Source: Anaeromyxobacter dehalogenans 2CP-1
GTDB taxonomy: Bacteria; Myxococcota; Myxococcia; Myxococcales; Anaeromyxobacteraceae
NCBI RefSeq assembly: GCF_000022145.1
Contig: NC_011891.1
Location: 1,240,001-1,304,000, forward strand
Direction: 5' to 3'
Length of the DNA stretch: 64,000 bases
The notes below the pieces were generated by a model, which was given only the letters and a program-made list of their open reading frames with translations, made no database searches and was not told the DNA's origin. Shown in pieces: positions 13,629 to 62,896 of this stretch. Every line of letters starts with the position of its first letter. The first letter of the stretch is position 1. The translations under genes were made by a program, and so were the position numbers.

Positions 13629-13639
13629 GGCGCGCCTCC

Positions 13640-18510: not shown

Positions 18511-18575
18511 CGCTCGGCTCGCCCGCGCTGAAGCGAGGACGGCGGGGGCGACAGGCGCCCCCGCCGCGGGCGAAA

Positions 18576-18761: not shown

Positions 18762-18780
18762 CTTCCGTCTCCCTGTGGTG

Positions 18781-19130: not shown

Positions 19131-19148
19131 GGCACGATGAGCCATGCC
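19131..19148. promoter_or_regulatory. palindrome operator copy before the kinase operon
   Basis: GGCACG-ATGAGC-CATGCC, a 6-6-6 inverted repeat identical in design to those at 7567-7584, 27013-27030 and 38125-38142. It ends 46 bases before the chosen start at 19195. This argues against the upstream in-frame ATG at 19144, which would lie inside it. Confidence 0.65.
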
Positions 19149-19194
19149 GTGGTTACATCCGTCGCTCGCAGGCGAACGGAGGAGGTCCGCGGAC

Positions 19195-20106: not shown

Positions 20107-20112
20107 CCCGCC

Positions 20113-43962: not shown

Positions 43963-44320
43963 GCGCGTAGCGTATCCGATGGTCCGGACACGACGCGGTA
44001 GCGGGTCGCGTCACTATGTCCCGCGAGCGTGGGGGCGGTGTGGAACGGTGGGTCAGGGGAACGCGGCAGCTCCGCGGGTCGTGATCGTCTGGCAGACGAA
44101 CGTCACTCCGACAGCCGTCGTGCAGAGATGCCACGGCGCCGCCTGATCGAACACCCACGACTCGCAGATCAAACATCGCGGATGCGTAGTGCTTTCGCGG
44201 AGAGACCGGTTCGCGCGTGTCGCTCCCCGTTGTAGGATGCACCGCGTGGGGGCTGAGTCCCGGGCGTACAGCTCGGGCGCCCGAGCTCCGTGAAAAGCGC
44301 CGTTGTCTTGCGAGGTTCGC
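43963..44320. promoter_or_regulatory. divergent intergenic region upstream of BREX
   Basis: This 358-base gap has no supported gene. It holds a perfect 15-base palindrome, TCGTCTG-G-CAGACGA (44085-44099), a possible operator, and a -10-like TAGGAT at 44233-44238 without a clear -35. The nuclease pair (left) and brxE (right) are probably both controlled from here. No BrxR-type regulator gene is seen in the window. Confidence 0.45.
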
Positions 44321-44899
44321 GTGTCGGCCCCCGTCACCGTCTCGACCGTCGATTCCATCCTCGCCGTCCAGCTCACGGTCGCCTGGGCTGGCGAGTCGCG
44401 AGAGACGACGAAACGCCTCGGCTGGTGGCACACCGACCTCATCGACTCCACGGGAGGCGGCGACTTCCTGGCGCGCCTGCTCCCTCGAACGCACGCGTGG
44501 TCCTCCCTCGAGGCAGTGCGTGAAGCGGCCCGCCGCACCGACGAGGCGGCCCGGCGGGGGATGGCGGATCCGGATCAGGTTCGGACGCTCTACTTCCTCG
44601 GTTTCGACCTCGATGAGCGGCTCGCGGAACGGCTCGCGGAGCTGAAGCGCGGTGGCCAGCCGCCCGCATCGGCGCTCTCGTTCCTCGTCGCGCTCGACGC
44701 CCCGTTCTCGAGCGAGAAGCTCACGGAAGCGCTGGCATTCGGCGCTGGGCGTGCGCCGGCCTACGACGTTGTGCCCGGCGGTCGGCAACTCAAGGGCACG
44801 GTGCCGTCTGCCCCCGAGCTGCTCGTCCAGAACCTCGCCGCCGCGCTGCTCCCGCTGGCCGAGCGCTACCCGACGCCGTTCTACCGGGTGAGGCCGTGA
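44321..44899 (+). CDS. brxE: BrxE, type VI BREX protein
   Basis: A 192-residue protein from GTG 44321 (GAGG upstream) with the BrxE pattern: ILAVQLTVAWAGE, LGWWHTDLID, FLARLLPRTHAWSSLEAVREAARR, and VRTLYFLGFDLDERL. BrxE is the gene that marks type VI BREX and always precedes brxA. Its biochemical role is unknown. It couples to brxA by GTGA overlap. A TTG six codons upstream is possible but less likely. Confidence 0.8.
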   Translation: MSAPVTVSTVDSILAVQLTVAWAGESRETTKRLGWWHTDLIDSTGGGDFLARLLPRTHAWSSLEAVREAARRTDEAARRGMADPDQVRTLYFLGFDLDERLAERLAELKRGGQPPASALSFLVALDAPFSSEKLTEALAFGAGRAPAYDVVPGGRQLKGTVPSAPELLVQNLAAALLPLAERYPTPFYRVRP

Positions 44900-45690
44900 T
44901 CGAGCTCGGTGAGGTGCGGGAGCCCGTCGCCTCGAGCGCCACGGCTCCGTCCGAGGAGACAGAGGTACACACCCGCATCCTCCGACTCGCGCTCGGCATC
45001 GAAGAGGCCCGCGCGTACTGGGCGCACATGGATCCAGCCGTCCCGCCCGGCGCGCGTGCTCTCCAGGCATTCGATCAGCGCTGGTTCGGCGCGAAGACCC
45101 TCGAGCGCGTCAAGACGCTCCTGCCCTACCTCGCCGCGCGGTACGACGCGTTCCCGGAGGCACTCGACGTGCTCCGCCGTTGGCGGCACATGGACCCCGC
45201 CGCGCGCCAGGTGATCTGCCACTGGCACGTCCAGCTCAGCGACCCGATCTACCGGCGATTCACCGGCGAGTTCCTCGTCGAGCGGCGCACGCTGCTGGAC
45301 CCGAAGGTGCATCGCCCCGGCGTGGCGCGCTGGGTGCGCCAGGCGTTCCCCGGCCGCTGGACCGAGTCCACGATCGTCCAGTTCGCGTCGAAGCTGCTCT
45401 CCGCGGCGTCCGAGGCCGGCCTCGTCTCGCCGAAGCGCGATCCCCGGTCGCTGCTCTTCCCCAAGGTGCCGGACGACGCGATCGTCTACCTCCTGCACCT
45501 GCTCCGCGGCATCCGCCACGAGGGCTCGCTCACGGAGAACCCGTACGTCGCGTCGGTCGGTCTCGCGGACGGGTTCCTCGACCAGCGCCTCAGGACGATC
45601 CCGGCGGTCACGCTCCGCCGCATGGGCGCCCTCGTCGAGCTCGACTGGGCGCACCCGACCCTTACCGCGTGGGCGGAGGCCTCGCTGTGA
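44896..45690 (+). CDS. brxA: BrxA (DUF1819) BREX protein
   Basis: A 264-residue protein with LLPYLAARYDAFPEALDVL, VICHWHVQLSDPIYRRFTGEFLVERR and RWTESTIVQFASKLLSAASEAGLV, the conserved DUF1819 segments of BrxA, a small DNA-binding helical protein. Overlaps at both ends (GTGA) show tight coupling with brxE and brxB. Confidence 0.88.
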   Translation: MIELGEVREPVASSATAPSEETEVHTRILRLALGIEEARAYWAHMDPAVPPGARALQAFDQRWFGAKTLERVKTLLPYLAARYDAFPEALDVLRRWRHMDPAARQVICHWHVQLSDPIYRRFTGEFLVERRTLLDPKVHRPGVARWVRQAFPGRWTESTIVQFASKLLSAASEAGLVSPKRDPRSLLFPKVPDDAIVYLLHLLRGIRHEGSLTENPYVASVGLADGFLDQRLRTIPAVTLRRMGALVELDWAHPTLTAWAEASL

Positions 45691-46322
45691 CGGAGCCGCT
45701 CTTCCAGCAGTCGACGCTCGACGACGCGGTCCAGGCCCTTCGCCGCGACCTCCTCGCGGATGGCGGGCCGCGCATCAGCACGATGCGCAACTACCGGTTC
45801 GCCATCCTCCCGTACAAGCCCGCCGAGGAGTTCAAGCTCCGCAAGCTCATGCGCCGGCTCGCGGACGATCTGAAGGGCGAGGGGTGGGGCGTCCTCGCCA
45901 TCTCCTTGCAGAAGCTGCTGCTCGACCGCATCCGCGCGACGGGAACCTCGAACGTCGAGGCGCTGATCGCGCGAGAGAAGTCGCTGCACGGGCGCGATCC
46001 GGAGCGGGCGCTCGAGCACCTCCGTCAGAAGATCGGGCCGCTCATCGAGGGCCCGGGCGGAATCGCCGCCGACGTCGCGCGGCTGATCGACGGGTTCGCC
46101 GCGGCGAACCCCGACGCGGACCGGACCCTCGTGCTCGTCGGCCGGAGCGGCGCGCTCTACCCCTTCTTCCGCACCTCGGCGCTGCTCAAGCACATTGACG
46201 GCAAGACCCGGAACATCCCGGTCGTCCTGCTTTACCCAGGCGAGCGGCGGGGCACGACGGAGCTCTCCTTCATGGGCGAGCTGAAGCCTGACCGCGATTA
46301 CCGTCCCCGCATCTATCCGTAG
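45687..46322 (+). CDS. brxB: BrxB (DUF1788) BREX protein
   Basis: A 211-residue protein with YRFAILPYKPAEEFKLRKLM and the C-terminal RTLVLVGRSGALYPFFRTSALL ... VVLLYPGERRGTTELSFMGEL, the DUF1788 hallmark. GTG start overlaps brxA; the gap to brxC is 12 bases. Needed for BREX defence and methylation in studied systems; mechanism unclear. Confidence 0.9.
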   Translation: MTEPLFQQSTLDDAVQALRRDLLADGGPRISTMRNYRFAILPYKPAEEFKLRKLMRRLADDLKGEGWGVLAISLQKLLLDRIRATGTSNVEALIAREKSLHGRDPERALEHLRQKIGPLIEGPGGIAADVARLIDGFAAANPDADRTLVLVGRSGALYPFFRTSALLKHIDGKTRNIPVVLLYPGERRGTTELSFMGELKPDRDYRPRIYP

Positions 46323-46334: not shown

Positions 46335-49300
46335 ATGAAGATCCAGGACCTCTTCGTCGCCGACGTCACGCGGGACATCCCGCCGGTCGTCTACTTCCAC
46401 GAGCAGAGCCCCGAGAAGCTCCAGGCCGAGGTCGCCGAGTACATCATCACGGGCGGCTACCGCGACGGGCATCCGCAGGCGCGCCGGCTCAAGGCGGGCA
46501 TCCACGAGCAGTTCGTTCACCTGCTCCGGGCGATCGTGAGCGAGCAGGCGAAGCCGAACGGCCCCGAGCTGCCGGCTTCCTGGATCTCGGGGTTCTACGG
46601 CTCCGGCAAGTCGAGCTTCGCGAAGTTGCTCGGGCTGGCTCTCAACGACGCGAGGCTGCCGGGCGGGAAGCCACTCGTGGACGCGCTGATCGCGCGCGAC
46701 GAGTCGCCGCTCCGGCAGGAGTTCGTTGAGGCGTGGAAGGCGCTGCGAGCGGCGCTCGACCCGATCGCGGTCGTGTTCGACATCGGCGGGGTCGCCCGCG
46801 ACGACGAGCACATCCACGTCGCGGCGCTCCGGCAGATCCAGGTGCGGCTCGGCTACTGCTCGAAGAGCCACCTCGTCGCGGCGCACGAGCTGATGCTCGA
46901 ACGGGACGGTGAGTGGGACGTCTTCCTCGCCGCGGCGGAGAAGACACTCGGGAGGCCATGGTCTAAGGCCAAGGAGGACCAGCAAGCGGACGACCACTTC
47001 TCGCACGTGCTCTCGGTGCTGCACCCCGAGCGCTACCGCGACCCGATGACCTGGATCGACTCGCGCGCCGGGTCGAAGACGGGGGCCGGAACCGCCGTGA
47101 AGGAGGTCGTCGATTCCATCGAGGCGATGCTGAGCATCCGCGCGCCCGGGAAGGCGCTCTTCATCGTCGTCGATGAGGTGAGCCAGTACGTGCACCAGGA
47201 CGACAACCGGATGCTGAAGCTCCAATCGTTCGTGTCGGAGTTGGGGCAGCGGCTGAAAGGTGCGGTGTGGCTGTTCGCGACCGGCCAGCAGAAGCTCGAG
47301 GACACGAGCCAGGCCGACAACATCGGCAAGCTGAAGGACCGATTCCCGCTCCCGCTCCGGGTCCACCTCCACCCGAGCAACATCCGCGACGTCGTCCACA
47401 AGCGGTTGCTCGCGAAGCGGAAGGATCGCGAGGCGCTTCTCCGCGAGCTGTTCCAGAAGCACCGGAGCGACCTCAAGCTGAACGCGTACGGATGCGAGGA
47501 GATTACCGAGGAGGACTTCCTCGAGGTCTACCCGATGCTCCCCGGGCAGGTGGATCTGCTCATGAAGATCACGTCGAGCCTGCGCACCCGCTCGACCCGC
47601 GTCCAGGGCGACGACCACGCCATACGCGGCCTGCTGCAGCTCCTCGGCGAGCTCTTCCGCGAGCAGAGGCTCGGGGAGCATGAGGTCGGAGAGCTCGTGA
47701 CGCTCGATGCGATCTTCGAGGTCCAGCACTCCGCGCTCGAAGCCGACGTCCAGACGACGCTCGCCCGCATCTTCGACCACGCCGACGTCCGCGACGACGC
47801 GCTCGCCCAGCGCGCAGCCCGCGCGGTCGCGCTGCTCGAGCTCATCCAAGAGCAGGAGCCCACCACGCCCGAGCTGGTCGCGAGGTGCCTCTACCGAAGG
47901 CTCGGGGACGGTAGCCAGGTGCAGGCGGTGGGGCAGGCGCTGGAGCGCCTCCGGGAGTCGAACCTCGTCGCCTACTCGGAGAAGCTCGGGTTCAAGATCC
48001 AGAGCTCCGCGGGGCAGGAGTGGGAGCACGAGCGTGAGGACATCCCGGTCACCGGAGAGCAGGTCTCCGAGGTCGTCCGGACGAAGCTGAAGGAGCTGCT
48101 CGCGATGCCGGAGCTGCCCCGATACAAGGGCTGCTCCTTCCCGTGGGCGGCGCTCTACAGTGACGGCCGGCAGCTCGCCGACGAGCGCGTGCAGGGCACG
48201 AACGCTAACGCAGCCGTGACGGTGGACTTCCGGTTCCTGCGCGTGAAGGACGATCGCACCTCGACGACGTGGATCCAGCGGAGCGACAAGGAGCCGCTCA
48301 CGGATCGCCTGCTCTGGCTGGTCGGCGATCCCGGCCCCATCGAGAGCATCGCCCGCGAGTACGCCCGCTCCGACCACATGGTGAAGCGGTACGGCGTCCG
48401 CCGCGAGTCGCTCACGAAGGAGAAGGGGCGGCTCCTCCTCGAGGAGGAGGCCCGCTACGAGGAGCTCGAGAAGAAGGTGAAGGCGGCCGTCGCCGACGCG
48501 TTCCTCGACGGCACGATGTTCTTCCGGGGGCGGCCTCTCGAGGCGCGGACCCTCGGAAGCGCCTTCGCGACGGCGCTGAGCGCCGCCGCGACCCGTATCC
48601 TCCCCGACCTCTACCCGCACTTCGTGGACGTCGCGATCTCCGACGCGGAGCTGAATCAGCTCCTCGAACGTCACCTGAACGGACCCTCGAACAAGTTCAT
48701 GGAGGGGCGGCTCGGGATCCTGTCGCTCGACGCTGGGCGCTACGTCGCGACCTGCGCCGGCGCCGAGCCCGCGCGCATCCTGCAGTACGTCGAGAACGCT
48801 AACGGCGCGTCCGGCGCGACGATCATCTCCCACTTCGGCGGTCCGCCGTACGGCTACCCGGTGGACGTGGTCCGCGCTTGCCTCGCCGGCCTGCTCCGGG
48901 CCGGGAAGATCCGCATTCGACCGGACGGGGAGCCCGAGATCACGTCGGTGAACGACCCGGGCACCCGCGACCTGTTCCGGCGCGACCGCGACCTGCGCCG
49001 CGCCGACGTGTTCCCGGCGCGGGAGGGAGCGATCACCGCCCGGGACAAGGTGGCGATCGCGACCTTCTTCAAGACGCACCTCGAGCTCGATCTCGAGCGC
49101 GAGAACGACGCCTTCGCGGACGCCGTATACCAGCAGTTCCCCGGGCGGCGGGAGCGGCTCCGCGAGGTGGAGGCCCTCTACGACCGGCTGCCGGGCCGTC
49201 CGGCGCTCCCGGCGGCGCTCGAGCGGCTCGGGAAGGCCCTCGAGGACTGCCGCCGCTCGCGGCAGGTCGAGGAGACGGTCCTCGCGCTCAAGCGGAACCT

Positions 49301-49955
49301 CGACGCCCTCCGTGACGGCCTCGAGCAGCTCGCGATCATCCGCGCCGAGCTGACGGACGACGCACTCCACGCGCTCGCGCGCGCCGCGCAGGTCCGAGAC
49401 GTCGAGCTCGAGCAGCTCCGGCAGGTCGAGGCGCTTGGCGGGGTCGAGGAGGACGGCAGGGCGCTCGCGGAGCACCTCTCGGGCGAGCGGCCCTGGCGCG
49501 GCATCGCCGACGCGGCGCCCGCGGCCGCGCGTATCCACGAGCGGTACGTCGAGGCGAGGAGGGCGCTCCTCAACCGGCAGAACGCGGAGGCGGAGGCCGC
49601 CCGCGGCCGGGTCAAGGCGCGCTCGGGGTTCGAGAAGCTCTCCGCCGACCAGGCGCACCACGTGCTACGGCCCGTCGCGGAGGCGCTGTTCGACACCGCC
49701 GCAGACGCGGTCGCGCCCGCGCTCGCCGACCTGCAGGCGCGCTTCCCCCAGCGGCTCGCGGCGGCCGAGGAGCTCGCCCAGGAGCGGCTCGACGACGCGA
49801 TCGCGAAGCTCACCGAGTCGCAGGTCGTGAAACTCGAGGCCGGTCTGCGTGGCCGCGAGATCAAGAGCCGTGACGAGCTGAAGACGGTGCTCCGTGAGCT
49901 GGAGGAGCGGATCGGCGCCGAGATCGACAAGGGCCGCCGCATTCGCCTCGTGTGA
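46335..49955 (+). CDS. brxC: BrxC/PglY BREX ATPase
   Basis: A 1206-residue AAA-type ATPase, the usual size of BrxC. Walker A GFYGSGKS lies at residues 86-93, a DEVSQYVHQDDN segment serves as Walker B, and GAVWLFATGQQKLED follows. There is a long helical C-terminal part. BrxC binds DNA as a large oligomer and is required for both protection and modification. A REP-like inverted repeat sits just behind the stop codon. Confidence 0.93.
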   Translation: MKIQDLFVADVTRDIPPVVYFHEQSPEKLQAEVAEYIITGGYRDGHPQARRLKAGIHEQFVHLLRAIVSEQAKPNGPELPASWISGFYGSGKSSFAKLLGLALNDARLPGGKPLVDALIARDESPLRQEFVEAWKALRAALDPIAVVFDIGGVARDDEHIHVAALRQIQVRLGYCSKSHLVAAHELMLERDGEWDVFLAAAEKTLGRPWSKAKEDQQADDHFSHVLSVLHPERYRDPMTWIDSRAGSKTGAGTAVKEVVDSIEAMLSIRAPGKALFIVVDEVSQYVHQDDNRMLKLQSFVSELGQRLKGAVWLFATGQQKLEDTSQADNIGKLKDRFPLPLRVHLHPSNIRDVVHKRLLAKRKDREALLRELFQKHRSDLKLNAYGCEEITEEDFLEVYPMLPGQVDLLMKITSSLRTRSTRVQGDDHAIRGLLQLLGELFREQRLGEHEVGELVTLDAIFEVQHSALEADVQTTLARIFDHADVRDDALAQRAARAVALLELIQEQEPTTPELVARCLYRRLGDGSQVQAVGQALERLRESNLVAYSEKLGFKIQSSAGQEWEHEREDIPVTGEQVSEVVRTKLKELLAMPELPRYKGCSFPWAALYSDGRQLADERVQGTNANAAVTVDFRFLRVKDDRTSTTWIQRSDKEPLTDRLLWLVGDPGPIESIAREYARSDHMVKRYGVRRESLTKEKGRLLLEEEARYEELEKKVKAAVADAFLDGTMFFRGRPLEARTLGSAFATALSAAATRILPDLYPHFVDVAISDAELNQLLERHLNGPSNKFMEGRLGILSLDAGRYVATCAGAEPARILQYVENANGASGATIISHFGGPPYGYPVDVVRACLAGLLRAGKIRIRPDGEPEITSVNDPGTRDLFRRDRDLRRADVFPAREGAITARDKVAIATFFKTHLELDLERENDAFADAVYQQFPGRRERLREVEALYDRLPGRPALPAALERLGKALEDCRRSRQVEETVLALKRNLDALRDGLEQLAIIRAELTDDALHALARAAQVRDVELEQLRQVEALGGVEEDGRALAEHLSGERPWRGIADAAPAAARIHERYVEARRALLNRQNAEAEAARGRVKARSGFEKLSADQAHHVLRPVAEALFDTAADAVAPALADLQARFPQRLAAAEELAQERLDDAIAKLTESQVVKLEAGLRGREIKSRDELKTVLRELEERIGAEIDKGRRIRLV

Positions 49956-49961: not shown

Positions 49962-49996
49962 GCCGCTCGCCCTGAGCCTGTCTAAGGGTGAGCGGC
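49962..49996. repeat. REP-like inverted repeat between brxC and pglX
   Basis: GCCGCTCGCCCT (49962-49973) pairs with AGGGTGAGCGGC (49985-49996) around GAGCCTGTCTA, with one mismatch. The core CCTGAGCCTGTC-AAGGG is a common proteobacterial intergenic repeat. It occupies most of the 62-base gap and lies on the in-frame GTG at 49988, which favours the later ATG for pglX. Confidence 0.7.
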
Positions 49997-50017
49997 GCTG
50001 CCGCCGAACGGTTCCCG

Positions 50018-53000
50018 ATGCCCACGCTGACCCCCGACGCGAAGCAGCTCCTCTCCCGCACCGTCCGCGAGCTGCGGGCGAGGCTGCTGCGCGACCTGAA
50101 CGATGAGGCAGAGCGGCGGTACCGGCTGTCGATCCCGCCGGAGAAGGCGAAGCTCCCGGAGGACCTGCGCCGGAAGCGCGAGCGGCTCGACGCCTGGCTC
50201 GACGAGCGCGCCCGGACCGCGAACCCCAAGAACAAGAGGGAGATGGAGTCCGCCCGCGCGCGATTCCTCGGCGACGCCGTGAAGGAGGCGGCTGCGACGC
50301 TGCTGAACCGCCTCGTGCTCCTCCGGCACCTCGAGGCGCTCGGCCTGCAAAAGCCGGTGTTCGTGACCGGCGGCTGGAACTCGAAGGGGTACCGCGAGCT
50401 GCGCGAGTTCGCACCGGCGCTGCTCGGGGACGAGACCGAGGGGTACGCGGCGATGCTGCGGCTCGTGTTCGACGAGCTCGCTCTCGAGCTGCCGGGCCTC
50501 TTCGGCGACGTGGGCCTCACTCGGCTGTTCGCCGTCCCGCCTGCGACGCTCCGCGAGGTGGTGGAGCGGCTCGACGACCCCGGGCTCGAGCCGGCCTGGA
50601 CGGACGACACGACGCTCGGCTGGGTATACCAGTACTGGAACGATCCGGAGCGCGAGGCGCTCGATGCAAAGCTGAACGCCGGCGGGAAAATTGAGCCGCA
50701 CGAGATCGCGTCGAAGACGCAGATGTTTACGGAGCGGTACATGGTCGAGTGGCTGCTCCACAACAGCCTCGGCCTGACGTGGCTCTGCATCTGCAATAGG
50801 AACGGCTGGACCGCGGATGCCGAAGCCGTGCTTTCCGTGCTCGATGCCCGGCGTGCGGAGTGGCGGAAGAAGCGTGAGGCCGGCGAGGTCGCACACGACG
50901 CCCTGATGCCCATCGAGGGCGAGCTCGAGGAGCACTGGAAGTACTACGTACCGCAACCGATCCCGGACGAAGCGGTGGCGAGCGCACCGGCATCGATCCG
51001 CGCGCTCAAGCTGCTCGACCCCGCCTGCGGATCGGGCCATTTCCTCGTGATCGCCTTCGACCTGCTCGCGGGGATGTACCGCGAGGAGGCCCGGCACCGG
51101 GGCGAGGTATGGAGCGACCGGGAAATCGCGGAGGCGATCCTCGAGAACAACCTTCACGGGATCGACATCGATCCGCGAGCGGTTCAAATCGCCGCAGCGG
51201 CGGTGATGCTGAAGGCGAAGCGGCAAGCGAAGGACGCGCGGCCGAAGCGGGTGAACCTGGTCGCGCCGGTGCTTCGGCTCGGGAACCTGCCTGACGACGA
51301 TCCGGCGCTCATGCGGCTGCGCCGCGAGGTCAGGGCGGAAACTGGGATTCCCGAGGAGCTGACCAGCCGGATCGTGAAGGCGCTCGCGGGAGTCGATCAC
51401 CTCGGTTCGCTGCTCAAGGTGGACGCAACGGTCGATGAAGCGATTGCAGACAGCGAGCGCATCTTGAGACCAGGAGCGCAGCTCGAACTGGGCGGAGATG
51501 CAGGAAAGACGCTGGAGCGTAGCCCGAATGAAGTCCGGGCTGCGTTGCACGAGAAGCTGGAGCAGTTCTTAAGGCAGCATTCGGGAGAAGAAGATCTCGG
51601 ACTGCGGCTGGATGGGGAGCAGCTCGCAGCAGGAATACGGTTTACCCGCGCAGCGAGAGAGGCGAGCTACGATGTCGTCGTTACCAACCCGCCGTACCAG
51701 GGGACGGCCCGTATCTCTGGTGCAGAATACTATGTTCGAGAGTATCCGCGCGCCGTTGCCGATTTGTATGCGGCTTTCATGGAGAGAGCGCTTGTCCTCG
51801 CGCGTCCGCACGGGATAGCTGCGTTGGTCACGATGCGTGGATGGATGTATCTGGCCCAGTTCGAGGAGTTGAGAGCCGCGTTGCTGGATTCGTGCGACAT
51901 CCGCTCACTAGCCGACATCGGTACGGGCGCGTTTGGTTCGCGCTCAATGGACGATGTGATCTCGTCCGCGATGGTGGTCGTCCGCCGGGGGAGGCCCGAT
52001 GGTAAGGCTATCGCTCTTCAAGCGGCCCCGCTGGCCGACGCCAGCCGTGATTCCGGCAAACCGTTGCGGCGGGCCGCGGCGTTGCTGTGCGGGCAAGGAA
52101 GATACGAGTTCGAGGCCGGGTGGTTCGAAGCTGTTGAAGGTAGGCCGATCATCTACTGGTGGGATAAGGGCTTCCTCGCGCGATACCGGGCCGCGAAGAA
52201 GCTCGGGGAAGTGGCTCCGGGGCGCAACGGGATGTCTACGCAGGACAACGTTCGATTCCTGCGCAAGTGGTGGGAGGTGAGGACGGAAGATGTCGCCGTA
52301 ACGCGCCCGCTGTTACGTCGGAACGGTTTTGGGCTCGCGAGATGGGCGCCATATGTGAAGGGCGCAGCGGGCCGCCAATGGTTCGAGCCAATGACCGACG
52401 TCGTGGATTGGGAAAGGTTCGGGCTTGCTCCGAAGGTGTTTTGCGAACACCTCTACGGGAGTTACTCGCGCACTATCAAGAACGAGCCGCTCTACTTCCG
52501 TCGGGGCATTGCTTTCACTGTGATTGGGTCCTCGTTCGGGGCAAGGGCGCATCGCGCGGAGAGCGTATTCGGGCACATGGGGGCGTCGGTGTTCCCGGAC
52601 GACATCCCGGGTGTGCTCTGCCTTATGAATGCTTCCGTATCGAAGTACGTCCTTTCGTCGCTGAACCCCGGGTTGCATTTTCTCGTGAGTGACGTGAATC
52701 GCTTGCCAGTGTTTGAGGTTCCGGACTCTGCGAAGATCTACGCCGTTGTGGAACACGTGTTTATTGACCATGAGAGCGGACGTGAAGCGTCTTCCGAGTT
52801 CCGACGCCCCCAGCCCTCTGAATGGGAGTACGCTCAGTCTTGGGCGCAGAGGGCAGTGGATCGAGGTCCTCTTGAAGCGTTGCCACCCTATTCACCAGAA
52901 CCCGTGCCGGCCGCTGGCATCGATCATCTGTCTTACGCAGTGGGTGTAGCGCTGGGTCGGTTCGGTTCTAAAGGCGAGGGGGTACTAACCGAATCGCGTG

Positions 53001-53992
53001 GGAGCGCGCTTCCGCTAGGAATGTTGTTCATCTCCGCGGCGTTGGGTGACGGGTCTCTCGCGCACGCCGCATGTGCCTCGCTACGCAACGCGTGGGTGGA
53101 ACACCAGGCCGGCGACTGCGCCGATCTCTGTACTTGGCTCCGCACCGGCTTCTTCAAGCACCACAAGTCGGTCTACGAGAACCGCCCCATCTACCTCCCG
53201 CTCTCTTCGGCGAAGAAGAGCTTCGTTGCCTGGGTGAGCATTCATCGTTGGGACGCGCAGACGCTCTCGAACCTCCTCGCGGAGCACCTCCACCCCGAGA
53301 AGCGCCGGCTGGAGGGCGAGCTCGAGGACCTCCGGCACGCGCGCGCGAAGGGAGAGAAGAGCGGGAAGGGCAAAGCCGAGAAGCGCTTTGCGGATGTGTC
53401 GAAGCTCCTCGAGGAGCTGACCGCGTTCATCGATCTCGTGACGGAATGCGCGGAGCGTGGCCCGCCGCCGACGTCGCCCGACGAGCCGCTGCGCGAGCGG
53501 GATGCGCGCTACGAGATGGACCTCGACGACGGCGTCATGGTGAACAGTGCCGCGCTGTGGCCGCTCCTCGAGCCGCAGTGGAAGGACCCGAAGAAGTGGT
53601 GGAAGGAACTCGCCACCGCGAACGGCCGCAAGGATTACGACTGGGCACACCTCGCGAAGCGCTACTTCCCGGAGCGGGTGGAGAAGAAGTGCGTCGAGGA
53701 TCCCTCGCTCGCCGTCGCACACGGCTGCTTCTGGCGCCTCCACCCCGCTAAGGCGTACGCCTGGGAGCTTCGCCTCCAGGACGAGATTCGGCAGGAGTTC
53801 ACCATCGACGAGCCCGGGTCCGAAAAGGCGCGCGCGGCGTTCCTAAAGTCGCACGCGGACGAGGCCAAGGCGATCCGGCTCAAGGAGCAGGAGCGCCGCG
53901 AGCGAAAGTCGCGGAAGAGTGATCCCGAGGAGAACCTGTCGCTCTCGCTAGAGTCGTCCGAGGTCGAGGCGGAAGCCGAGGAGGTCGAGTGA
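50018..53992 (+). CDS. pglX: PglX BREX adenine methyltransferase
   Basis: A 1324-residue N6-adenine methyltransferase that marks host DNA and directs BREX specificity. SAM motif I LDPACGSGHF lies near residue 334 and catalytic motif IV NPPY at 557. An N-terminal helical domain and a C-terminal Lys/Glu-rich tail with EAEEVE end it. About 51440-53100 (residues 475-1027, covering motif IV and the presumed target-recognition domain) drops to about 50% GC, against about 70-80% on either side, suggesting replacement. The ATG at 50018 is preferred over a GTG ten codons upstream. The stop overlaps pglZ. Confidence 0.93.
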   Translation: MPTLTPDAKQLLSRTVRELRARLLRDLNDEAERRYRLSIPPEKAKLPEDLRRKRERLDAWLDERARTANPKNKREMESARARFLGDAVKEAAATLLNRLVLLRHLEALGLQKPVFVTGGWNSKGYRELREFAPALLGDETEGYAAMLRLVFDELALELPGLFGDVGLTRLFAVPPATLREVVERLDDPGLEPAWTDDTTLGWVYQYWNDPEREALDAKLNAGGKIEPHEIASKTQMFTERYMVEWLLHNSLGLTWLCICNRNGWTADAEAVLSVLDARRAEWRKKREAGEVAHDALMPIEGELEEHWKYYVPQPIPDEAVASAPASIRALKLLDPACGSGHFLVIAFDLLAGMYREEARHRGEVWSDREIAEAILENNLHGIDIDPRAVQIAAAAVMLKAKRQAKDARPKRVNLVAPVLRLGNLPDDDPALMRLRREVRAETGIPEELTSRIVKALAGVDHLGSLLKVDATVDEAIADSERILRPGAQLELGGDAGKTLERSPNEVRAALHEKLEQFLRQHSGEEDLGLRLDGEQLAAGIRFTRAAREASYDVVVTNPPYQGTARISGAEYYVREYPRAVADLYAAFMERALVLARPHGIAALVTMRGWMYLAQFEELRAALLDSCDIRSLADIGTGAFGSRSMDDVISSAMVVVRRGRPDGKAIALQAAPLADASRDSGKPLRRAAALLCGQGRYEFEAGWFEAVEGRPIIYWWDKGFLARYRAAKKLGEVAPGRNGMSTQDNVRFLRKWWEVRTEDVAVTRPLLRRNGFGLARWAPYVKGAAGRQWFEPMTDVVDWERFGLAPKVFCEHLYGSYSRTIKNEPLYFRRGIAFTVIGSSFGARAHRAESVFGHMGASVFPDDIPGVLCLMNASVSKYVLSSLNPGLHFLVSDVNRLPVFEVPDSAKIYAVVEHVFIDHESGREASSEFRRPQPSEWEYAQSWAQRAVDRGPLEALPPYSPEPVPAAGIDHLSYAVGVALGRFGSKGEGVLTESRGSALPLGMLFISAALGDGSLAHAACASLRNAWVEHQAGDCADLCTWLRTGFFKHHKSVYENRPIYLPLSSAKKSFVAWVSIHRWDAQTLSNLLAEHLHPEKRRLEGELEDLRHARAKGEKSGKGKAEKRFADVSKLLEELTAFIDLVTECAERGPPPTSPDEPLRERDARYEMDLDDGVMVNSAALWPLLEPQWKDPKKWWKELATANGRKDYDWAHLAKRYFPERVEKKCVEDPSLAVAHGCFWRLHPAKAYAWELRLQDEIRQEFTIDEPGSEKARAAFLKSHADEAKAIRLKEQERRERKSRKSDPEENLSLSLESSEVEAEAEEVE

Positions 53993-56850
53993 CCGGCGGA
54001 CTGACCGCTTTGGCGCTCGAGCAGGAGCTCCTTGGCGAGCTGCGTCGCCGCGGTGTCGTCGTCTGGCTCGACGCGCACGGCACATACACCCCCTTCGTGG
54101 ACGGGCTCTCCGCCCGCGCGAAGCAGGGTGAGTTCCCGTTCCCGGTCGTCGCGTTCCGAGGCAGCTTCCTCGAGATCGTACTCGCGCTCGAGCCGTACGG
54201 CAGCGGCCTCGACAACGCGCCGCTCCTCATCCACATGCCGGCTTTCACGGAGGACAGCATCCGGGCGACACCGGTGCTCGAGCTGTACGAGCCGGGCTTC
54301 CGGTTCCGCAAGGACCCGAAGACGCTCGTCCGCGAGGTCGCGCGCGGCCGCGTGGCGCCCGATGCGCTCGAGCAGTACCTCGCGGGCGCGGGCACCGTGG
54401 ACCTCGCGGCCGCCGACGCCTGGCTTGCGAGCCAGCTCACGCACACGCGAGAAGGGCTCGCGGCGCTCCTGGAGCAGCTCGGACCGACGCTCGTCCTCGA
54501 CGCACTCGTCGATGTGCTCGAGCGGCGGGAGAGCTTCCTCCTCCAGCGTGTCGGCAGCGACGCCGAGAGGGAGGTGCTGGAGGCCTGGCTCGCGCGCCAG
54601 ACCGGGATGGACGCCGCATGGCTCCGGTTCTACGGGAGCGACCCGAAGGCGACCCCGCTCGCGAGCGTCGCGGGCGCGCTCGTCGGCTGGCTCCTCTCGG
54701 TGGAGTACGTCCACGATCTTAACCGGCCACCGTTCGTCGCCGAACTCGTGCGCCTGCGGGACCTCTCGGCGCCGCTCGTGAAGGCGTCCCTCGCGCTCGT
54801 CGACCACATCAGAGGGAAGCACACGGACTCGTACGCGTCGCTCGCCGACGAGGTGGAGCTTCACCTGCACGAGGAGCTTCCGGCGATCAGGCCCGAGGAC
54901 CTCGGCAAGATCGACACGTTCCGGAAGGAGGAGCAGCGCGTCCTCCAGGGCGCGGTGGACGCGCTCCGGGCCGGCGAGTGGGAGAAGGTCCGCGGCTGGG
55001 CCGAGGCTCGGAACGAGGAGCGGTCATACTGGCTCCGCCGCGATCCGGCGCGGCGGCGCGCGTGGGAGCTCGCTCGGGAAGCCGCGGCGCTCGGGAGCAT
55101 GCTCACGGCGCGGCCGCGGCCGCTCGAGGGCGTGCGGTCGCTCGACGCGGCCGTTGAGCGCTACGCCGCCACCGCGTACGAGGTAGATCGCGCGCACCGG
55201 CGGTTCGAGCAGCGCCAGGCCACGCTCCTCGACTCGCAGCTGCCGCACTTCGGTGACCTGAAGGAGATCGTCCGCGTGCTCAGGAGCGCGTACCGGGGCT
55301 GGGCCGACCGGCTCGCGCGCGATTTCGCCGCGGCGTGCCGAGCGGCGGGGTTCCTCCCCGACGCCACTCTCCAGCAGCGGGCCGTGTTCGAGCAGGTGGT
55401 CCAGCCGCTCGCGACGGACGAACGTGTCGCGCTGTTCCTCCTTGACGCCTTCCGCTACGAGATGGCGACGGAGCTCCTCGCCGAGCTGAAGGCGCCCGGG
55501 ACCGTCGTGGACCTGAAGGCGCGGCTCGCCGAGCTCCCGACCATCACCGCGGTGGGAATGAACGCACTCGCGCCGGTCAGCCAGGGCGGGCGTCTCCAGG
55601 TTTCAGGGACCTTCGGCGGGTTCCGCACCGGCGAGTTCACGGTCCGTACCCCCGACGACCGCGCGCGCGCGATCGGCCTCCGCACGGGCGCGAAGCAGAG
55701 CGTCCTACTGCAGCTCGGCGAGGTTTGCGAGCTCGAGCCGGAGAAGCTGAAGCGGAAGATCGCGAGCGCGCGCGTCGTCGTCGTCCACGGGACGGAGATC
55801 GATGACGCCGGTGAGGCGAACCTCGGCCCGGCAACGTTCGAGATCTTCCTGCGGCAGCTCCGGACGGCCTTCGCGCAGCTCCAGAAGGCGGGGGTGAAGT
55901 CGTTCGTGTTCACGGCCGACCACGGGTTCCTCCTGCTCGACGAGACGACGCAGAAGGTGCCCTACGGCTCGAAGCGCGACCCCGCTCAGCGCTACGTGCT
56001 CGACGAGCATCCGCGCGCCGAGCAGGGCATGGTGAACGTCTCGCTCTCGGCACTCGGCTACGACGGGCTCGCGGGGTACCTGCTCTTCCGCGAGGACACC
56101 GCGGTGTTCGCCACCGGCAACGCCGGGGCGACGTTCGTGCACGGCGGCAACAGCCCGCAGGAGCGGATCATCCCTGTCTTGACCGTCCGGCGCGAACGGC
56201 CGTTGGGGCGGACGCTGATGGCGTACCGGGTGGACGCCGAGCGGCTGCCAGATGCGATGGGCCTCCGCCGCGTCCGCGTCCGACTCCGTGCGGCCCACGA
56301 CGACGCCGGCCAGCTCGGGTTCGTAGCGGCGCCCGCGGTGAGCGTCGGGATGCGCGCGCCCGGTCATCCCGAGGTACGCGCGACCTTGAAGGGCGTCTCA
56401 GGTCCGGGAGCCGTGGAAGACGGCACGCTCCGCCTCGCAATGGACGCCGACTGGACGGAAGTCTTCTTCGCGCTCGAGGGTCCGTCGTCTGAAGCCGTGC
56501 GGCTCGAGGTCTACCACCCGGACGCGGTGGAGAAGGTCGCGCCGAAGCCGCTCGACGGCTGGTTCGACGTGGACTGGCGGCGCGGCTCCGTGGAGCCGGT
56601 CGCCCCGCAGCCGGAGCGGGTGCTGGACTGGTCGGACGCGCTGCCCGCTGGCGGCGTTCGCGCGGTGTTCGAGCACCTCGCGGTGCACGGGGCGATCACC
56701 GAGACCGAGGTGACGCGCATGCTCGGGTCGCCGCGCGCGTTCCGCCGGTTCTCGCTCGACTTCGACGAGCACGTTCGCAAGGTGCCGTTCCGAATCCGCA
56801 CCGAGCCGGGCTCTGACGGCAAGCGGTACGTGAAGGAAGGGGAGAGGTAG
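53989..56850 (+). CDS. pglZ: PglZ BREX alkaline-phosphatase-fold protein
   Basis: A 953-residue protein with an N-terminal PglZ region, LFLLDAFRYEMATELL (metal-site Asp, about 487), AELPTITAVGMNALAP and VFTADHGFLLLDE, which are alkaline-phosphatase-superfamily motifs. The last 75 residues, beginning near VLDWSDAL and containing HLAVHGAITE and LGSPRAFRRF, form a separate domain repeated in the next gene. PglZ likely is a nuclease or phosphodiesterase. GTG start overlaps pglX; pglZ ends exactly where the next gene begins. Confidence 0.92.
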   Translation: MTGGLTALALEQELLGELRRRGVVVWLDAHGTYTPFVDGLSARAKQGEFPFPVVAFRGSFLEIVLALEPYGSGLDNAPLLIHMPAFTEDSIRATPVLELYEPGFRFRKDPKTLVREVARGRVAPDALEQYLAGAGTVDLAAADAWLASQLTHTREGLAALLEQLGPTLVLDALVDVLERRESFLLQRVGSDAEREVLEAWLARQTGMDAAWLRFYGSDPKATPLASVAGALVGWLLSVEYVHDLNRPPFVAELVRLRDLSAPLVKASLALVDHIRGKHTDSYASLADEVELHLHEELPAIRPEDLGKIDTFRKEEQRVLQGAVDALRAGEWEKVRGWAEARNEERSYWLRRDPARRRAWELAREAAALGSMLTARPRPLEGVRSLDAAVERYAATAYEVDRAHRRFEQRQATLLDSQLPHFGDLKEIVRVLRSAYRGWADRLARDFAAACRAAGFLPDATLQQRAVFEQVVQPLATDERVALFLLDAFRYEMATELLAELKAPGTVVDLKARLAELPTITAVGMNALAPVSQGGRLQVSGTFGGFRTGEFTVRTPDDRARAIGLRTGAKQSVLLQLGEVCELEPEKLKRKIASARVVVVHGTEIDDAGEANLGPATFEIFLRQLRTAFAQLQKAGVKSFVFTADHGFLLLDETTQKVPYGSKRDPAQRYVLDEHPRAEQGMVNVSLSALGYDGLAGYLLFREDTAVFATGNAGATFVHGGNSPQERIIPVLTVRRERPLGRTLMAYRVDAERLPDAMGLRRVRVRLRAAHDDAGQLGFVAAPAVSVGMRAPGHPEVRATLKGVSGPGAVEDGTLRLAMDADWTEVFFALEGPSSEAVRLEVYHPDAVEKVAPKPLDGWFDVDWRRGSVEPVAPQPERVLDWSDALPAGGVRAVFEHLAVHGAITETEVTRMLGSPRAFRRFSLDFDEHVRKVPFRIRTEPGSDGKRYVKEGER

Positions 56851-57603
56851 ATGACTGGATTTGCACCGTTCACCGTGTTCGGTGAGCTGCCCAACGGCGG
56901 CCCGGGCGGCGACACCGACCCGCCGCTGCGCGCACCGATCCAGCCGGAGCAGCACGAGGAGCTCCTCCGGATCGCGCGGGACGTCATTCTCGTGGCGACG
57001 GGCCCGAGGGACGGGCTCACGTCGCCGCTGGACCGGCACGCCTTCGACGCCGCCATCCGGTCGTACATGCCGCTCGGCCATTACGACCGCTCGCCGAACC
57101 AGCCGGTCTCCGCGATGGATTACAAGATGTACGCGTGTCGCTTCGTGCATCGGCTGCTGAACGCGGTCACCGGCCGCAGGCTGAAGGTCGCGGGGACGTA
57201 CCAGAGCCACCTCGGCACCAATGCGCGGGCGAACGCGCTCTACGAGACGCTAGTGGAGATCGTCGCCGCGGGGTCGGCGGCGCGGTCGCAGGCCGCGCCC
57301 CGAGCGCTTGCTCCCGCCGCCGAGCCCGCTCCGTCGCCCGCGGTTCGTTCGCCGCCGCCTGCGACGGGACAGGTGCCCGCCTGGGTCGAGGCGTTGGCGG
57401 ACGACGGCGTCCGGCGCGTGTTCCTGCACCTCGCCGTGCACGGCTCCGTGACGGAGCCGGAGGCGACGTCGTTCCTCGGCTCGCCGCGCGCGTATCGGCG
57501 GTTCGCGCTCGAGCTCGAGGAGCACGCACGCCACGCACCGTTCCGGGTACGCGTCGAGGCGACAGGCGACGGGAAGCGGTACGTGAAGGACAGGGAGAGC
57601 TAG
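56851..57603 (+). CDS. extra BREX-locus protein sharing the PglZ C-terminal domain
   Basis: A 250-residue protein not in the standard type VI list. Residues 1-145 are an unrecognised helical domain (EQHEELLRIARDVILVATGP; AMDYKMYACRFVHRLLNAVTG). A Pro/Ala linker (about 148-175) leads to a 75-residue domain: VFLHLAVHGSVTEPEATSF, LGSPRAYRRFALELEEH and GDGKRYVKD. That domain aligns without gaps to the PglZ C-terminus (HLAVHG, LGSPRA-RRF, GDGKRYVK), about 60% identical by eye. It has a winged-helix-like strand and helix pattern. It starts on the base after the pglZ stop and ends three bases before brxD. It probably binds the same partner or DNA as PglZ. Confidence 0.8.
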   Translation: MTGFAPFTVFGELPNGGPGGDTDPPLRAPIQPEQHEELLRIARDVILVATGPRDGLTSPLDRHAFDAAIRSYMPLGHYDRSPNQPVSAMDYKMYACRFVHRLLNAVTGRRLKVAGTYQSHLGTNARANALYETLVEIVAAGSAARSQAAPRALAPAAEPAPSPAVRSPPPATGQVPAWVEALADDGVRRVFLHLAVHGSVTEPEATSFLGSPRAYRRFALELEEHARHAPFRVRVEATGDGKRYVKDRES

Positions 57604-57606: not shown

Positions 57607-58932
57607 ATGGGACTCACCCGGCGGGACGTGAACCACATCTTCGAGCGGCTGCGGTCGGGCGTGGTGCCCGAGCGCGGCCTCGACGCCTTCGCGGTCGGCA
57701 TCGAGCGGCAGCGCGCGGAGCTCGGCCGGGTGCTCGACCTTGCACACGCAGGCGAGGGCGTCTTCAAGTTCCTCCGCGGCGGCTACGGCTGCGGGAAGAC
57801 GTTCATGTCTCGCCTCGCCGTCCTGGACGCGCAGGCCCGGGGGTTCGCCACGAGCTTCGTCGTGGTCTCCGACAACGACCTCCATTTCCACCGCTTCGAC
57901 GAGCTGTACCGAAAGATCGTCCAGGAACTCGGGACGAGCTCGTGCCCGCGCGGTGCGCTCGCCGACATCGTGGACCGCTGGATCGCGAAGGTCGAGAACG
58001 CGCTGGTCGCGGCCGGCGCGAACGAGGAGGCGCCCGGGTTCGACGCCCAGGTGCAGAAGCGGATCGGGGAGGAGATCACGTCGCTGACCGGCGGCAAGGC
58101 GCCCGAGGACTTCGCGCGCGTGCTGCGCGAGATCTTCGCGCTCAAGCAGGCAGGGAAGGGAGCAGACGCGGGCGCGCTGCTGTCCTGGCTGTCCGGGAGC
58201 GGCAACGTGGCCGCCCAGCAGAAGAAGTCCGCCGGCATCAAGGGCGACATCACGAGCGCCGAGGCGCTGGATTATCTTCACGGGCTACTCGAGATCGTGA
58301 AGGCGGCCGGGTACAAAGGACTCGTCATCGTCATCGATGAGGCGGAGACGATCCTGCGGATGCGGCAGGACGTGCGCGGGAAGTCGCTGAACGGGATTCG
58401 CCAGATCTGCGACGCAGCCGACCGGTACCACGGGCTCCTCTGGATCTTCACGGGCACCCCCGACTTCTTCGACACGAAGCGGGGCGTCGCCGGCCTCCAG
58501 CCGCTCCACGATCGGATCCGGTTCCTCTCGCAGCCGGGCTACGTGAGCCTCAGGCAGGCGCAGCTCGAGCTAAAGCCGTTCGACGCCGGTCGGCTGAAGG
58601 AGGTCGCGCTGAAGCTCCGCGAGATCTACCCCGCGAGCGACCCGCCCGGGCTGGAGGCGCGTGTCACGCCGGAGTTCATCGAGCGGCTCGTGCGCGAGGT
58701 GACGAAGGGCTTCGGCGGCGACGTCGGCATCGTGCCGCGGCAGTTCCTGCGGCAGCTCGTGAACGTGTTCGACCTCACGATCGAGTTTCCCGAGTACGAC
58801 CCGGAGAAGCAGTTCAAGTTCGAGCCGCAGGGCACGAGTGACTACGAGGCGCGCAAGCTCGAGGGGAAGCCTCCGTACGACCCCGAGCCCGGTGACGACA
58901 AGGGATACCCGACGACGTCCGTGGAGTTCTGA
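57607..58932 (+). CDS. brxD: BrxD BREX ATPase
   Basis: A 441-residue P-loop ATPase (DUF2791-like). Walker A is GGYGCGKT at 58-65 and Walker B is LVIVIDEAETILRM near residue 240, followed by LLWIFTGTPDFFDTKRGV and a conserved PRQFLRQLVNVFDL near the end. BrxD is found in type II and type VI BREX next to brxHI and may load the helicase. Three-base gaps on each side. Confidence 0.9.
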   Translation: MGLTRRDVNHIFERLRSGVVPERGLDAFAVGIERQRAELGRVLDLAHAGEGVFKFLRGGYGCGKTFMSRLAVLDAQARGFATSFVVVSDNDLHFHRFDELYRKIVQELGTSSCPRGALADIVDRWIAKVENALVAAGANEEAPGFDAQVQKRIGEEITSLTGGKAPEDFARVLREIFALKQAGKGADAGALLSWLSGSGNVAAQQKKSAGIKGDITSAEALDYLHGLLEIVKAAGYKGLVIVIDEAETILRMRQDVRGKSLNGIRQICDAADRYHGLLWIFTGTPDFFDTKRGVAGLQPLHDRIRFLSQPGYVSLRQAQLELKPFDAGRLKEVALKLREIYPASDPPGLEARVTPEFIERLVREVTKGFGGDVGIVPRQFLRQLVNVFDLTIEFPEYDPEKQFKFEPQGTSDYEARKLEGKPPYDPEPGDDKGYPTTSVEF

Positions 58933-58934: not shown

Positions 58935-61040
58935 GTGAGCGCGTTCTCACGGTTCCCCGCCCGGCTGCAGCAGGCGATCGTCTCGCGCCTCGGGTGGACG
59001 GCGCTGCGTGCGGTGCAGGAGCTCGCGGGCGAGGCGATCCTCGATGGGAAGAACGCGGTCGTGCTCGCGCCGACCGCAGGCGGCAAGACGGAGGCGTCCA
59101 TCTTCCCGGCGCTCGCGAACCTCGTCGAGAACGGGTGTGAAGGCGTCGGCGTGGTCTACGTCGCGCCCATCAAGGCACTCCTCAACAACCAAGAGGAACG
59201 GCTCGGCACGTACACGGAGATGGTCGGCCTGCGCCGCTTCGTGTGGCACGGGGACGTGCCGGACCGGGACAAGCGCGAGTTCGTTCGGGAGCCCGCCGAG
59301 CTCCTGATGACGACGCCCGAGTCGCTCGAGGTGATGCTGCTCTCGCCGCGCTTCCCGACGCCGAAGGTCTTTCCCGACCTTCGCATGGTGATCGTCGACG
59401 AGGTGCACGCGTTCGCTGGGACCGAGCGCGGCGCACACCTCATGAGCGTCCTCGAGCGGCTCATCAAGAGCACGAAGAATGACGTCCAGCGGATCGGGCT
59501 GAGCGCGACTGTCGGAAACCCGGAGGAAATCCTCGGATGGTTGCAGGGGACGTCGCGCCGGGCCGGCGTGGTCGTCGATCCGCCGAAGGTGTCCGCCCGG
59601 CGCGAGTTGCACGTTTCACTCCACGAGAGCGTCATCGACATCGCCCGGGACGCGGCTCGGCGTGCTGCGGGGAACAAGAGCCTGTTCTTCTGCCAGAGCC
59701 GCGCGTTGACCGAGTCCGTCGCTGAGAGGATGCGTGGGCACGGGACGGAGGTGTTCGTTCATCACGGCTCGGTGTCACGTGAGGAGCGCCACGACGCGGA
59801 GGCGCAATTCAACCACGGTACGAACGCCTGCATCGTCTGCACGTCGACCCTCGAGCTCGGGATCGACGTAGGAGATCTCGACCTCGTGATGCAGGCGAAT
59901 GCCCCGAGCACCGTTTCGTCGTTCCTCCAGCGCATGGGCCGGACGGGCCGGCGCGCCGGGCAGACCGCGAACACGAGCTTTTTCTGCGAGGACGAGGACG
60001 CGGCGCTCCAGGCGGTCGCGCTCGTCGAGCTCGCGCGCGAGGGCTGGGTGGAGCGGGTGCCAGCCGCACGCCGGTGCTGGCCGGTGTTCGCGCACCAGAT
60101 CTTCGCGCTAACGCTGCAGTACGGAGCGGTGAGCCCGGAGCGCTGCTGGGAGCACCTCCACGTCGTGCGGGACTTCGCGGACATCAGCCGCGACGAGTTC
60201 GAGCGCGTGCTCGACCACATGAAGCGCCACGAGTACCTCTTCGAGTCCGGCGGCCTCCTCTCGCTGGGCCAGAAGGCCGAGCGGGTCTACGGGAAGCGGA
60301 ACTTCCTCGAGCTGTACGCGGTGTTCTCGAGCCCGGTGCTGTACCAGGTCGAGACTGCCGCTGGCCGGGCGCTCGGCTCCCTCGAGCAGAACTTCGTGGA
60401 CCAGCTCGTCGAGGAGATGAGCGCGTTCCTTCTCGCTGGTCGCGCGTGGCTCGTCGAACACGTGCACCACGAGGACCGCGTCGTCCGCGTCCGAGAGGCG
60501 CCGCGAGGCCAGAAGCCGAGCTGGGGTGGATTCGCGCCTTCCCTGCTCGGGTTCGAGATCTGCCAGCGCATGAAGCGCGTCCTGACCGACTCGACGCCGG
60601 TTCCCTACGCGGACGCTGCCGCGATGCGCGCGATCGAGGCCCGCCGCAAAGACCTCGGGGATACCCTGCGGCGGCCCATCGCGATGCAAACGGACGAGGG
60701 GGTGGTGCGGTGGTGGACGTTCGCCGGGGGCAAGATTAACCAGACCCTCAAATACGGGCTCGAGTGGAGTCACGACTGGTCGGTGAAGGGCGATAACTTC
60801 GAACTGCGGATCTCGGGCGCGGGGGTATCGGACGGTGCCGTCCGCGAGGCCATCCGCGAGGTGTCTTCGGCTGCGTTCTGGGACAAGCCGGAGACCAGAT
60901 CGGCGATTCTTGGTCGGCTTCCGGCGTACCGCCTGAGCAAGTTCCAGGACGCGCTGCCCGACGTGTTCGCTGTAGAGCTGGTGGGCAACTACTTGCTAGA
61001 CGTGCCGCGCGCGCAGGCGTTCGCGCAGTCGGTCCTCTGA
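58935..61040 (+). CDS. brxHI: BrxHI Lhr-like DEAD/DEAH helicase
   Basis: A 701-residue SF2 helicase. Motif I is APTAGGKT at 45-52, motif II DEVH at 155-158, motif III SATVGNPEEIL, and the second RecA domain has TSTLELGIDVGDLDLVMQ and QRMGRTGRRAGQ, followed by an Lhr-type C-terminal domain. BrxHI closes the type VI operon. Starts two bases after brxD. Behind it, 61041-61166 carries no supported gene. Confidence 0.92.
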   Translation: MSAFSRFPARLQQAIVSRLGWTALRAVQELAGEAILDGKNAVVLAPTAGGKTEASIFPALANLVENGCEGVGVVYVAPIKALLNNQEERLGTYTEMVGLRRFVWHGDVPDRDKREFVREPAELLMTTPESLEVMLLSPRFPTPKVFPDLRMVIVDEVHAFAGTERGAHLMSVLERLIKSTKNDVQRIGLSATVGNPEEILGWLQGTSRRAGVVVDPPKVSARRELHVSLHESVIDIARDAARRAAGNKSLFFCQSRALTESVAERMRGHGTEVFVHHGSVSREERHDAEAQFNHGTNACIVCTSTLELGIDVGDLDLVMQANAPSTVSSFLQRMGRTGRRAGQTANTSFFCEDEDAALQAVALVELAREGWVERVPAARRCWPVFAHQIFALTLQYGAVSPERCWEHLHVVRDFADISRDEFERVLDHMKRHEYLFESGGLLSLGQKAERVYGKRNFLELYAVFSSPVLYQVETAAGRALGSLEQNFVDQLVEEMSAFLLAGRAWLVEHVHHEDRVVRVREAPRGQKPSWGGFAPSLLGFEICQRMKRVLTDSTPVPYADAAAMRAIEARRKDLGDTLRRPIAMQTDEGVVRWWTFAGGKINQTLKYGLEWSHDWSVKGDNFELRISGAGVSDGAVREAIREVSSAAFWDKPETRSAILGRLPAYRLSKFQDALPDVFAVELVGNYLLDVPRAQAFAQSVL

Positions 61041-62044: not shown

Positions 62045-62896
62045 ATGGAAGGCACCGAGGTTTCCCCAGTCGGCGGGTTCGTCTACCACTATACGAAGGC
62101 CTCGACCGCGCTCGAGCTCATTCTCGAGTCGATGACGATCCGGCTGGGCCCAATCTCGGAGACGCACGACCCGCTGGAGGGGCACCGCGAGTACACGGGG
62201 TTCTCCGCGGCGGACGATGGCCTGCCGGACCTTTCCGCCTGGGACAAGGTCGACGACGTGGCAAAGCGGGCGCGAGTCGCGTGCTTCTGCCTAGACGGCG
62301 ACCTCTCGTCGCCTGACCCGTGCGCGCTGGACTTCGCTCCGCCGTGGGCCGGTTGGGCGCGGGACCGGATGTGGGCGCAGTACGCGGGTGGCCACACCGG
62401 GGTGTGCCTAGCGTTCGACCGGCGGAAGCTTGTCGACGCGTTCAACTTGGCGCTGGCGAGCCGGGGGGAGTGCATCGCCCAAGAGGTCGCCTACAGCGAC
62501 GACCCCGTCTCCTCCGTCGGGCCGCGCTCGCTCTCATACGACAACGAGCGGATCCAGCAGGTCGGCACCGAGAAGTACGCCGCCGAGTACCGGCGGCAGC
62601 ACGCGCCGACGCTCTACCTGACGAAGCGCCTGGACTACGAGGGCGAGCGAGAGTTCAGGCTCGTGCTCCTCGATGACGACACGTCGGGGAAGGAGGCGCT
62701 GGTCCCGATTCGCGGCGCGCTCGTCTACTTCATGCTCGGGGATCGCTTCCCGCGAGCGTACCTGCCATGCGTCGACGCGATCATGCGGCGCGAGGACGTG
62801 CCCACCTACCAGTTCAAGTACGAGTCGGGCCGGAACGTGAGCGCGTACACGTACTTCGCGTCCGACCGGAGTCTTTCCGGAACCTGCCCGCGCTGA
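62045..62896 (+). CDS. DUF2971 family protein
   Basis: A 283-residue protein with the DUF2971 layout: FVYHYTKASTALELILES (opening), HDPLEGH, VACFCLDGD, DRMWAQYAGGHTGVCLAFD and YEGEREFRLVLL. The family is often carried on mobile or defence islands, and its fold may be ADP-ribosyltransferase-like, but no activity is established. It is divergent from the protease-like gene across 95 bases. Confidence 0.75.
   Translation: MEGTEVSPVGGFVYHYTKASTALELILESMTIRLGPISETHDPLEGHREYTGFSAADDGLPDLSAWDKVDDVAKRARVACFCLDGDLSSPDPCALDFAPPWAGWARDRMWAQYAGGHTGVCLAFDRRKLVDAFNLALASRGECIAQEVAYSDDPVSSVGPRSLSYDNERIQQVGTEKYAAEYRRQHAPTLYLTKRLDYEGEREFRLVLLDDDTSGKEALVPIRGALVYFMLGDRFPRAYLPCVDAIMRREDVPTYQFKYESGRNVSAYTYFASDRSLSGTCPR

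Follow-up and report, generated by a model that had tools for sequence, protein, structure and literature searches.

Directly between pglZ and brxD of a complete type VI BREX operon in Anaeromyxobacter dehalogenans 2CP-1 we identified a gene, hereafter termed X, whose predicted product ends in a copy of the C-terminus of the neighbouring PglZ. Based on the sequence comparisons described below, X has about an even chance of being a rare accessory subunit of this system, composed of a foreign domain, a linker and the duplicated 3' end of pglZ, and placed where the tail of PglZ goes. The window analysed was a stretch of 64 000 nucleotides of the genome (contig NC_011891.1, 1 240 001 to 1 304 000), and positions refer to this window unless a numbered locus is given.

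Gene X and the type VI BREX operon

All eight genes of a type VI BREX system were recognised in the window, each on the forward strand. They are the type VI marker gene brxE (44303-44899, 198 amino acids; PDLC02495, E 7e-91), brxA (44896-45690, 264 amino acids; PDLC02448, E 1e-139), brxB (45669-46322; PDLC02459, E 3.5e-106), the true start of which probably lies some codons inside the frame, brxC (46335-49955, 1206 amino acids; PDLC02486), the methyltransferase gene pglX (49988-53992, 1334 amino acids; PDLC02523), type VI ('type 6') pglZ (53989-56850, 953 amino acids; a full-length match, with 1639 bits to NF033443, and also matching PDLC02548), brxD (57607-58932, 441 amino acids; NF033438, 573.7 bits) and the helicase gene brxHI (58935-61040, 701 amino acids; PDLC02501). 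Just downstream of the operon, on the same strand, a gene at 62045-62896 encodes a DUF2971 protein with a weak match to PADLOC PDC-S31 and is possibly a further defence gene.

X (56851-57603, forward strand) has an ATG start and encodes a polypeptide of 250 amino acids, as delineated by its open reading frame and translation, coding bias and the alignment to PglZ. It is wedged between its neighbours as the first-pass annotation of this DNA had stated: the last nucleotide of the pglZ stop codon is 56850 and X begins at the next one, 56851 (0 nt), and X runs with its stop codon to 57603, leaving 3 nt before the start of brxD at 57607. The GC3 of 0.90 and codon usage of the N-terminal half, which favours the annotated frame, are signs of coding, and codon use and GC3 of X are in keeping with the rest of the operon. 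The protein consists of a foreign helical N-terminal domain (residues 1-140, 56851-57270, forward strand), a Pro/Ala-rich linker (residues 139-176, 57265-57378, forward strand; 58% Pro plus Ala, with low pLDDT in the model) and a copy of the C-terminal winged helix of type VI PglZ (a predicted fold; residues 173-250, 57367-57600, forward strand), the last delimited by the PglZ alignment, the structure model and conserved columns.

Profile searches with each half of X assigned the tail to the end of type VI PglZ and left the N-terminal half without a known family. No Pfam, NCBIfam, PADLOC or PHROG model matched the N-terminal half and no catalytic family was recognised in it with these collections; the statement of the first-pass annotation that the published type VI gene set lacks such a gene fits the absence of any model for this half from PADLOC, NCBIfam and Pfam. 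No match to the N-terminal domain was found in phages or plasmids, nor in genome and viral contigs, using patterns built from only two sequences or one, so that its apparent rarity is in part a limit of the search. The sole relative among about 195 genomes of the phylum (42-43% identity, E 5e-21) was found in locus L070 of genome G011, in which PglZ and BrxD were not detected. This relative begins with a zinc ribbon (WKCPGCG) and is located outside BREX, near relaxase and coupling-protein genes (named by sequence reading) as well as genes for a VRR-NUC protein, a PLD-like protein and a protein that weakly matches PD-(D/E)XK. Weaker matches in the phylum (E 0.002-0.1) were lost on rescoring with a two-sequence profile and were rejected. 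A single-sequence model of the N-terminal half gave a loose helical bundle of low confidence (pLDDT 67), for which structural comparison returned only generic helical-bundle matches (Z 5.9 or less, Foldseek E above 0.4).

The PglZ tail and its copy in X

Residues 170-249 of X aligned gap-free with residues 873-952 of PglZ, with 46 of 80 positions identical (58%, E 2e-26), a match that as a sequence alignment is far beyond chance; the gap-free relationship reported in the first-pass annotation was thus confirmed, over about 80 residues rather than 75. Profile matches of the X tail fell solely at the C-terminal end of models for type VI PglZ (877-955 of 958 in NF033443, E 5e-26; 880-957 of 961 in PDLC02548). 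Compared with type VI PglZ as represented by these models, X shares the last 80 or so residues, with all strongly conserved ones kept; missing from X are the N-terminal region, the PF08665 phosphatase/nuclease core and the stretch that adjoins the tail. No match to PF08665 was found in X at E values up to 10, whereas this domain is present in the neighbouring PglZ.

At the DNA level, the two tails form a direct repeat of 248 nt (71% identical, spacing 753 nt) that crosses the stop/start junction; the counterpart in PglZ lies at 56614-56850 (forward strand), as delimited by the alignment to X, the scan of other loci and the repeat. Codons were shared at 35 of 45 identical residues against 24.6 expected (s.d. 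3.0), and because this exceeds expectation the X tail looks recently copied from the local pglZ or a close relative. Gene conversion alone was rejected as an explanation, as the codon sharing fits a fairly recent copy, not a full one. The divergence of the tails (Nei-Gojobori; dN 0.30, dS 0.60) indicates that the X tail is changing fairly fast, and relaxed constraint is therefore possible. Even so, all 15 columns with a conservation of 90% or more among tails are retained in X (15 of 15), though only 45 of its 78 residues match PglZ (hypergeometric 8e-5), which argues that the tail is probably working. A tree of 85 tails, which has too few columns for a firm placement, put X on a long branch close to type VI tails of Myxococcota.

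Of the type VI loci scanned, which come from many phyla (L072-L151, the best 80 of 178), 79 of 80 have a PglZ that ends in this tail; in the exception, L150, the PglZ match ends at residue 675, near the contig end. Several of the loci compared in this study are from metagenome assemblies. Type VI PglZ thus has the tail as a regular part and not through an accident of one strain, and the possibility raised earlier that the shared domain is absent elsewhere does not hold. An AlphaFold2 model of the X tail, using an alignment of 53 tails, gave the arrangement H-E-H-H-E-E with a two-strand wing at a pLDDT of about 97, so that a winged helix is predicted with high confidence and the previous suggestion of a docking or DNA-binding module appears a fair guess. 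Structural matches to the model were mostly winged-helix proteins (over 60-74 residues, at Z 5.6-7.7, where common arrangements also score), Foldseek matches had E values of 0.1 or above, and Pfam HTH_39 matched weakly in 11 of 53 tails. Neither a search of the sequences of solved structures with the alignment of X and tails nor a query of a viral structure library returned anything useful. The likeness to PF0095 (2qlz), SSV1 F-112 (2vqc) and ArsR/MarR regulators is one of predicted tail fold only, with no sequence relation shown.

Winged helices usually contact DNA through the recognition helix and the wing. PglZ tails show hardly any variation at R213, R216, K242, R243, W178, F218 and Y244 (numbered as in X), and in the model R213 and R216 are located in the recognition helix and K242 and R243 at the wing. 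From these conserved basic residues we infer that the tail may bind DNA. Type II PglZ, according to PMC12839542, ends in a winged helix.

Occurrence of tail-bearing proteins in other loci

Among the 77 type VI loci in which pglZ and brxD could both be seen (from the best 80 of 178), a tail-bearing gene between the two was present in one, that of the window. With a single occurrence in 77 loci, X does not belong to the core of type VI BREX, is dispensable for it, and is far from being a constant feature of type VI loci; the idea that it is an overlooked member of the set was not upheld. Since the comparison covered the best 80 of 178 loci, further X-like genes may exist. The spacing between pglZ and brxD was at most 60 nt in 64 of the 77 loci, and that between pglX and pglZ exceeded 300 nt in 32 of 63 (both from the best 80 of 178). 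The pglX-pglZ junction is a hotspot for extra genes in this set (L072-L151, the best 80 of 178), unlike the pglZ-brxD and brxD-brxHI junctions. Extra genes in the pglZ-brxD gap were rare, occurring in the window, in L139 and in L073. In the Pseudanabaena locus L139 this gap contains a gene for a 140-amino-acid aspartyl-protease-like (gag-asp) protein (12894-13316), and in L073 it contains a 7-kb stretch; unlike X, neither has a PglZ tail. In a type VI locus of Sorangium, an AIPR-family gene separates brxD from brxHI (L103, 14163-15956). Scanning plasmids and viral sequences for additional type II or VI loci brought up only ordinary or distant ones.

X resembles the accessory genes of other type VI loci, which are likewise extra, in or beside the operon, and vary by locus. 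Auxiliary effectors of BREX loci have been surveyed (PMC12839542), with type II and type VI loci reported there from hundreds of taxa, and stand-alone copies of the PglZ tail are not described in the literature on BREX parts that was searched, including the main text of that survey.

When the whole phylum was searched for the tail by profile, 11 genomes yielded 14 matches, and 11 of these matches were PglZ; the remaining three were X, a zinc-ribbon protein in L137 and a protein in L034. Outside the phylum of the window, genomes were reached through PglZ searches only. The 348-amino-acid zinc-ribbon protein (L137, 16882-17928) follows brxHI directly and precedes genes for a McrB-like AAA protein and McrC. 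Like X, it is a small protein bearing a type VI PglZ tail beside a type VI operon; it differs from X in that the region before the tail was copied too, the protein being a diverged copy of that region plus the tail (31% to PglZ 714-948), and in its position after brxHI and before mcrBC. In L151 the tail occurs on two proteins (16778-20986 and 16044-17246), a helicase of the AAA_11/AAA_12 type that also has an MTES_1575-like nuclease domain (PADLOC PDC-S37) and a second, smaller one, both on the opposite strand beyond brxHI, and in L104 on a 459-amino-acid protein encoded upstream of pglZ. The L034 protein (13196-19462, 2088 amino acids) has an M48-like peptidase domain fused to a PDC-S37-related helicase-nuclease and ends in a type VI tail, and in its genome the PglZ domain and BrxD were not detected. 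Taken together, these carriers indicate that the tail is nearly specific to type VI PglZ yet has moved several times, once outside BREX. As neither PglZ nor BrxD was detected in the genome that encodes the L034 helicase-nuclease, the tail cannot serve as a plug for BREX alone, and DNA is favoured over a BREX partner as its target.

A parallel was found in type II BREX, where the profile of type II PglZ matched a second time just after pglZ in genome G181. In this locus (L179), pglZ (8597-11419) is followed by a gene encoding 221 amino acids (11478-12143), brxD (from 12140) and brxHI. The 221-amino-acid protein, which NCBIfam and PADLOC recognise merely as a PglZ fragment, joins two hydrophobic segments through a linker to a copy of the end of its own PglZ (56 of 100 residues identical, gap-free, E 2e-36). 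The letters GTGAGCCA follow the pglZ stop codon and recur where the brxD junction begins. With synonymous divergence saturated and a dN of 0.35, this copy is old at synonymous sites yet constrained as a protein; by its divergence and codon sharing the duplication in X is the younger one. A similar copy was not seen in the other type II loci examined. The L179 protein is like X in its slot, foreign N-terminus, linker and tail from the PglZ of its own locus; it is unlike X in its tail family, its hydrophobic segments in place of a soluble helical domain and its older duplication. As profile comparison of type II and type VI tails detected no homology, the two proteins look like independent inventions, probably the same design made twice in the same slot.

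Proposed role of X and alternative explanations

Were X an accessory subunit, it would be translated beside PglZ and BrxD, and its tail would carry it to the site of the tail of PglZ itself. This site would most likely be DNA, contacted by the recognition helix (R213, R216) and the wing (K242, R243); the other candidate is a partner within the complex. At this site, the N-terminal domain might add a regulatory or sensing activity or tune the number of PglZ molecules engaged.

The tail could instead have no role of its own and be a by-product of insertion, in which foreign DNA entered the pglZ-brxD junction along with a duplicated pglZ 3' end, which preserved the ribosome-binding and coupling sequence ahead of brxD. 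Such an origin is suggested by the crossing of the stop/start junction by the 248-nt repeat, by the junction sequence repeated after pglZ in L179 and by the codon excess that marks the X tail as a recent copy. Against it stand the retention of all 15 most conserved residues in X, the synonymously old, protein-constrained copy in type II and the tails on proteins away from any pglZ-brxD junction (L034, L137, L151), and we regard it as unlikely. No more probable is that X is a regulator and not an added effector, either as a DNA-binding repressor or as a competitor at the site of PglZ that restrains the nuclease (an immunity or dosage brake). Its small size, its tail shared with PglZ, its place directly after pglZ and the lack of a recognised catalytic family in its N-terminal half would suit this function; its absence from most type VI loci and the lack of any regulatory hint in the N-terminal domain argue the other way. 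The least probable account makes X a cargo gene whose task is unrelated to BREX, such as a separate defence activity directed at other elements, with the winged helix merely as a DNA-binding tail. The relative of its N-terminal domain near relaxase, coupling-protein and nuclease-like genes outside BREX and the tail-bearing helicase-nuclease without BREX point in that direction, and both the tight coupling of X inside the operon and the type II protein with a different N-terminus in the same slot point away from it.

An accessory subunit carrying a copied tail would be a protein of a new sort in a known system, possibly with a general scheme behind it. To our knowledge, the BREX types with BrxD and BrxHI are types II and VI. 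We tentatively propose, as a possibility clearly less probable than the role suggested for X itself, that in these types the PglZ tail is a plug that has been copied onto unrelated proteins, which join the complex at the site of PglZ; X and the L179 protein would then be independent plug-in subunits at the pglZ-brxD junction, and the zinc-ribbon and helicase-nuclease carriers further cases. Copying of the tail may thus be a repeated way of adding parts to BREX. The correlation of BrxD and BrxHI with winged-helix PglZ tails in types II and VI is worth testing, and X, tail mutants and tail swaps offer a direct handle on what the PglZ tail touches. The tail is also a signature for more accessory BREX subunits, currently modelled merely as PglZ fragments, and its repeated transfer to other proteins shows that it is a functional part that can be separated from PglZ.
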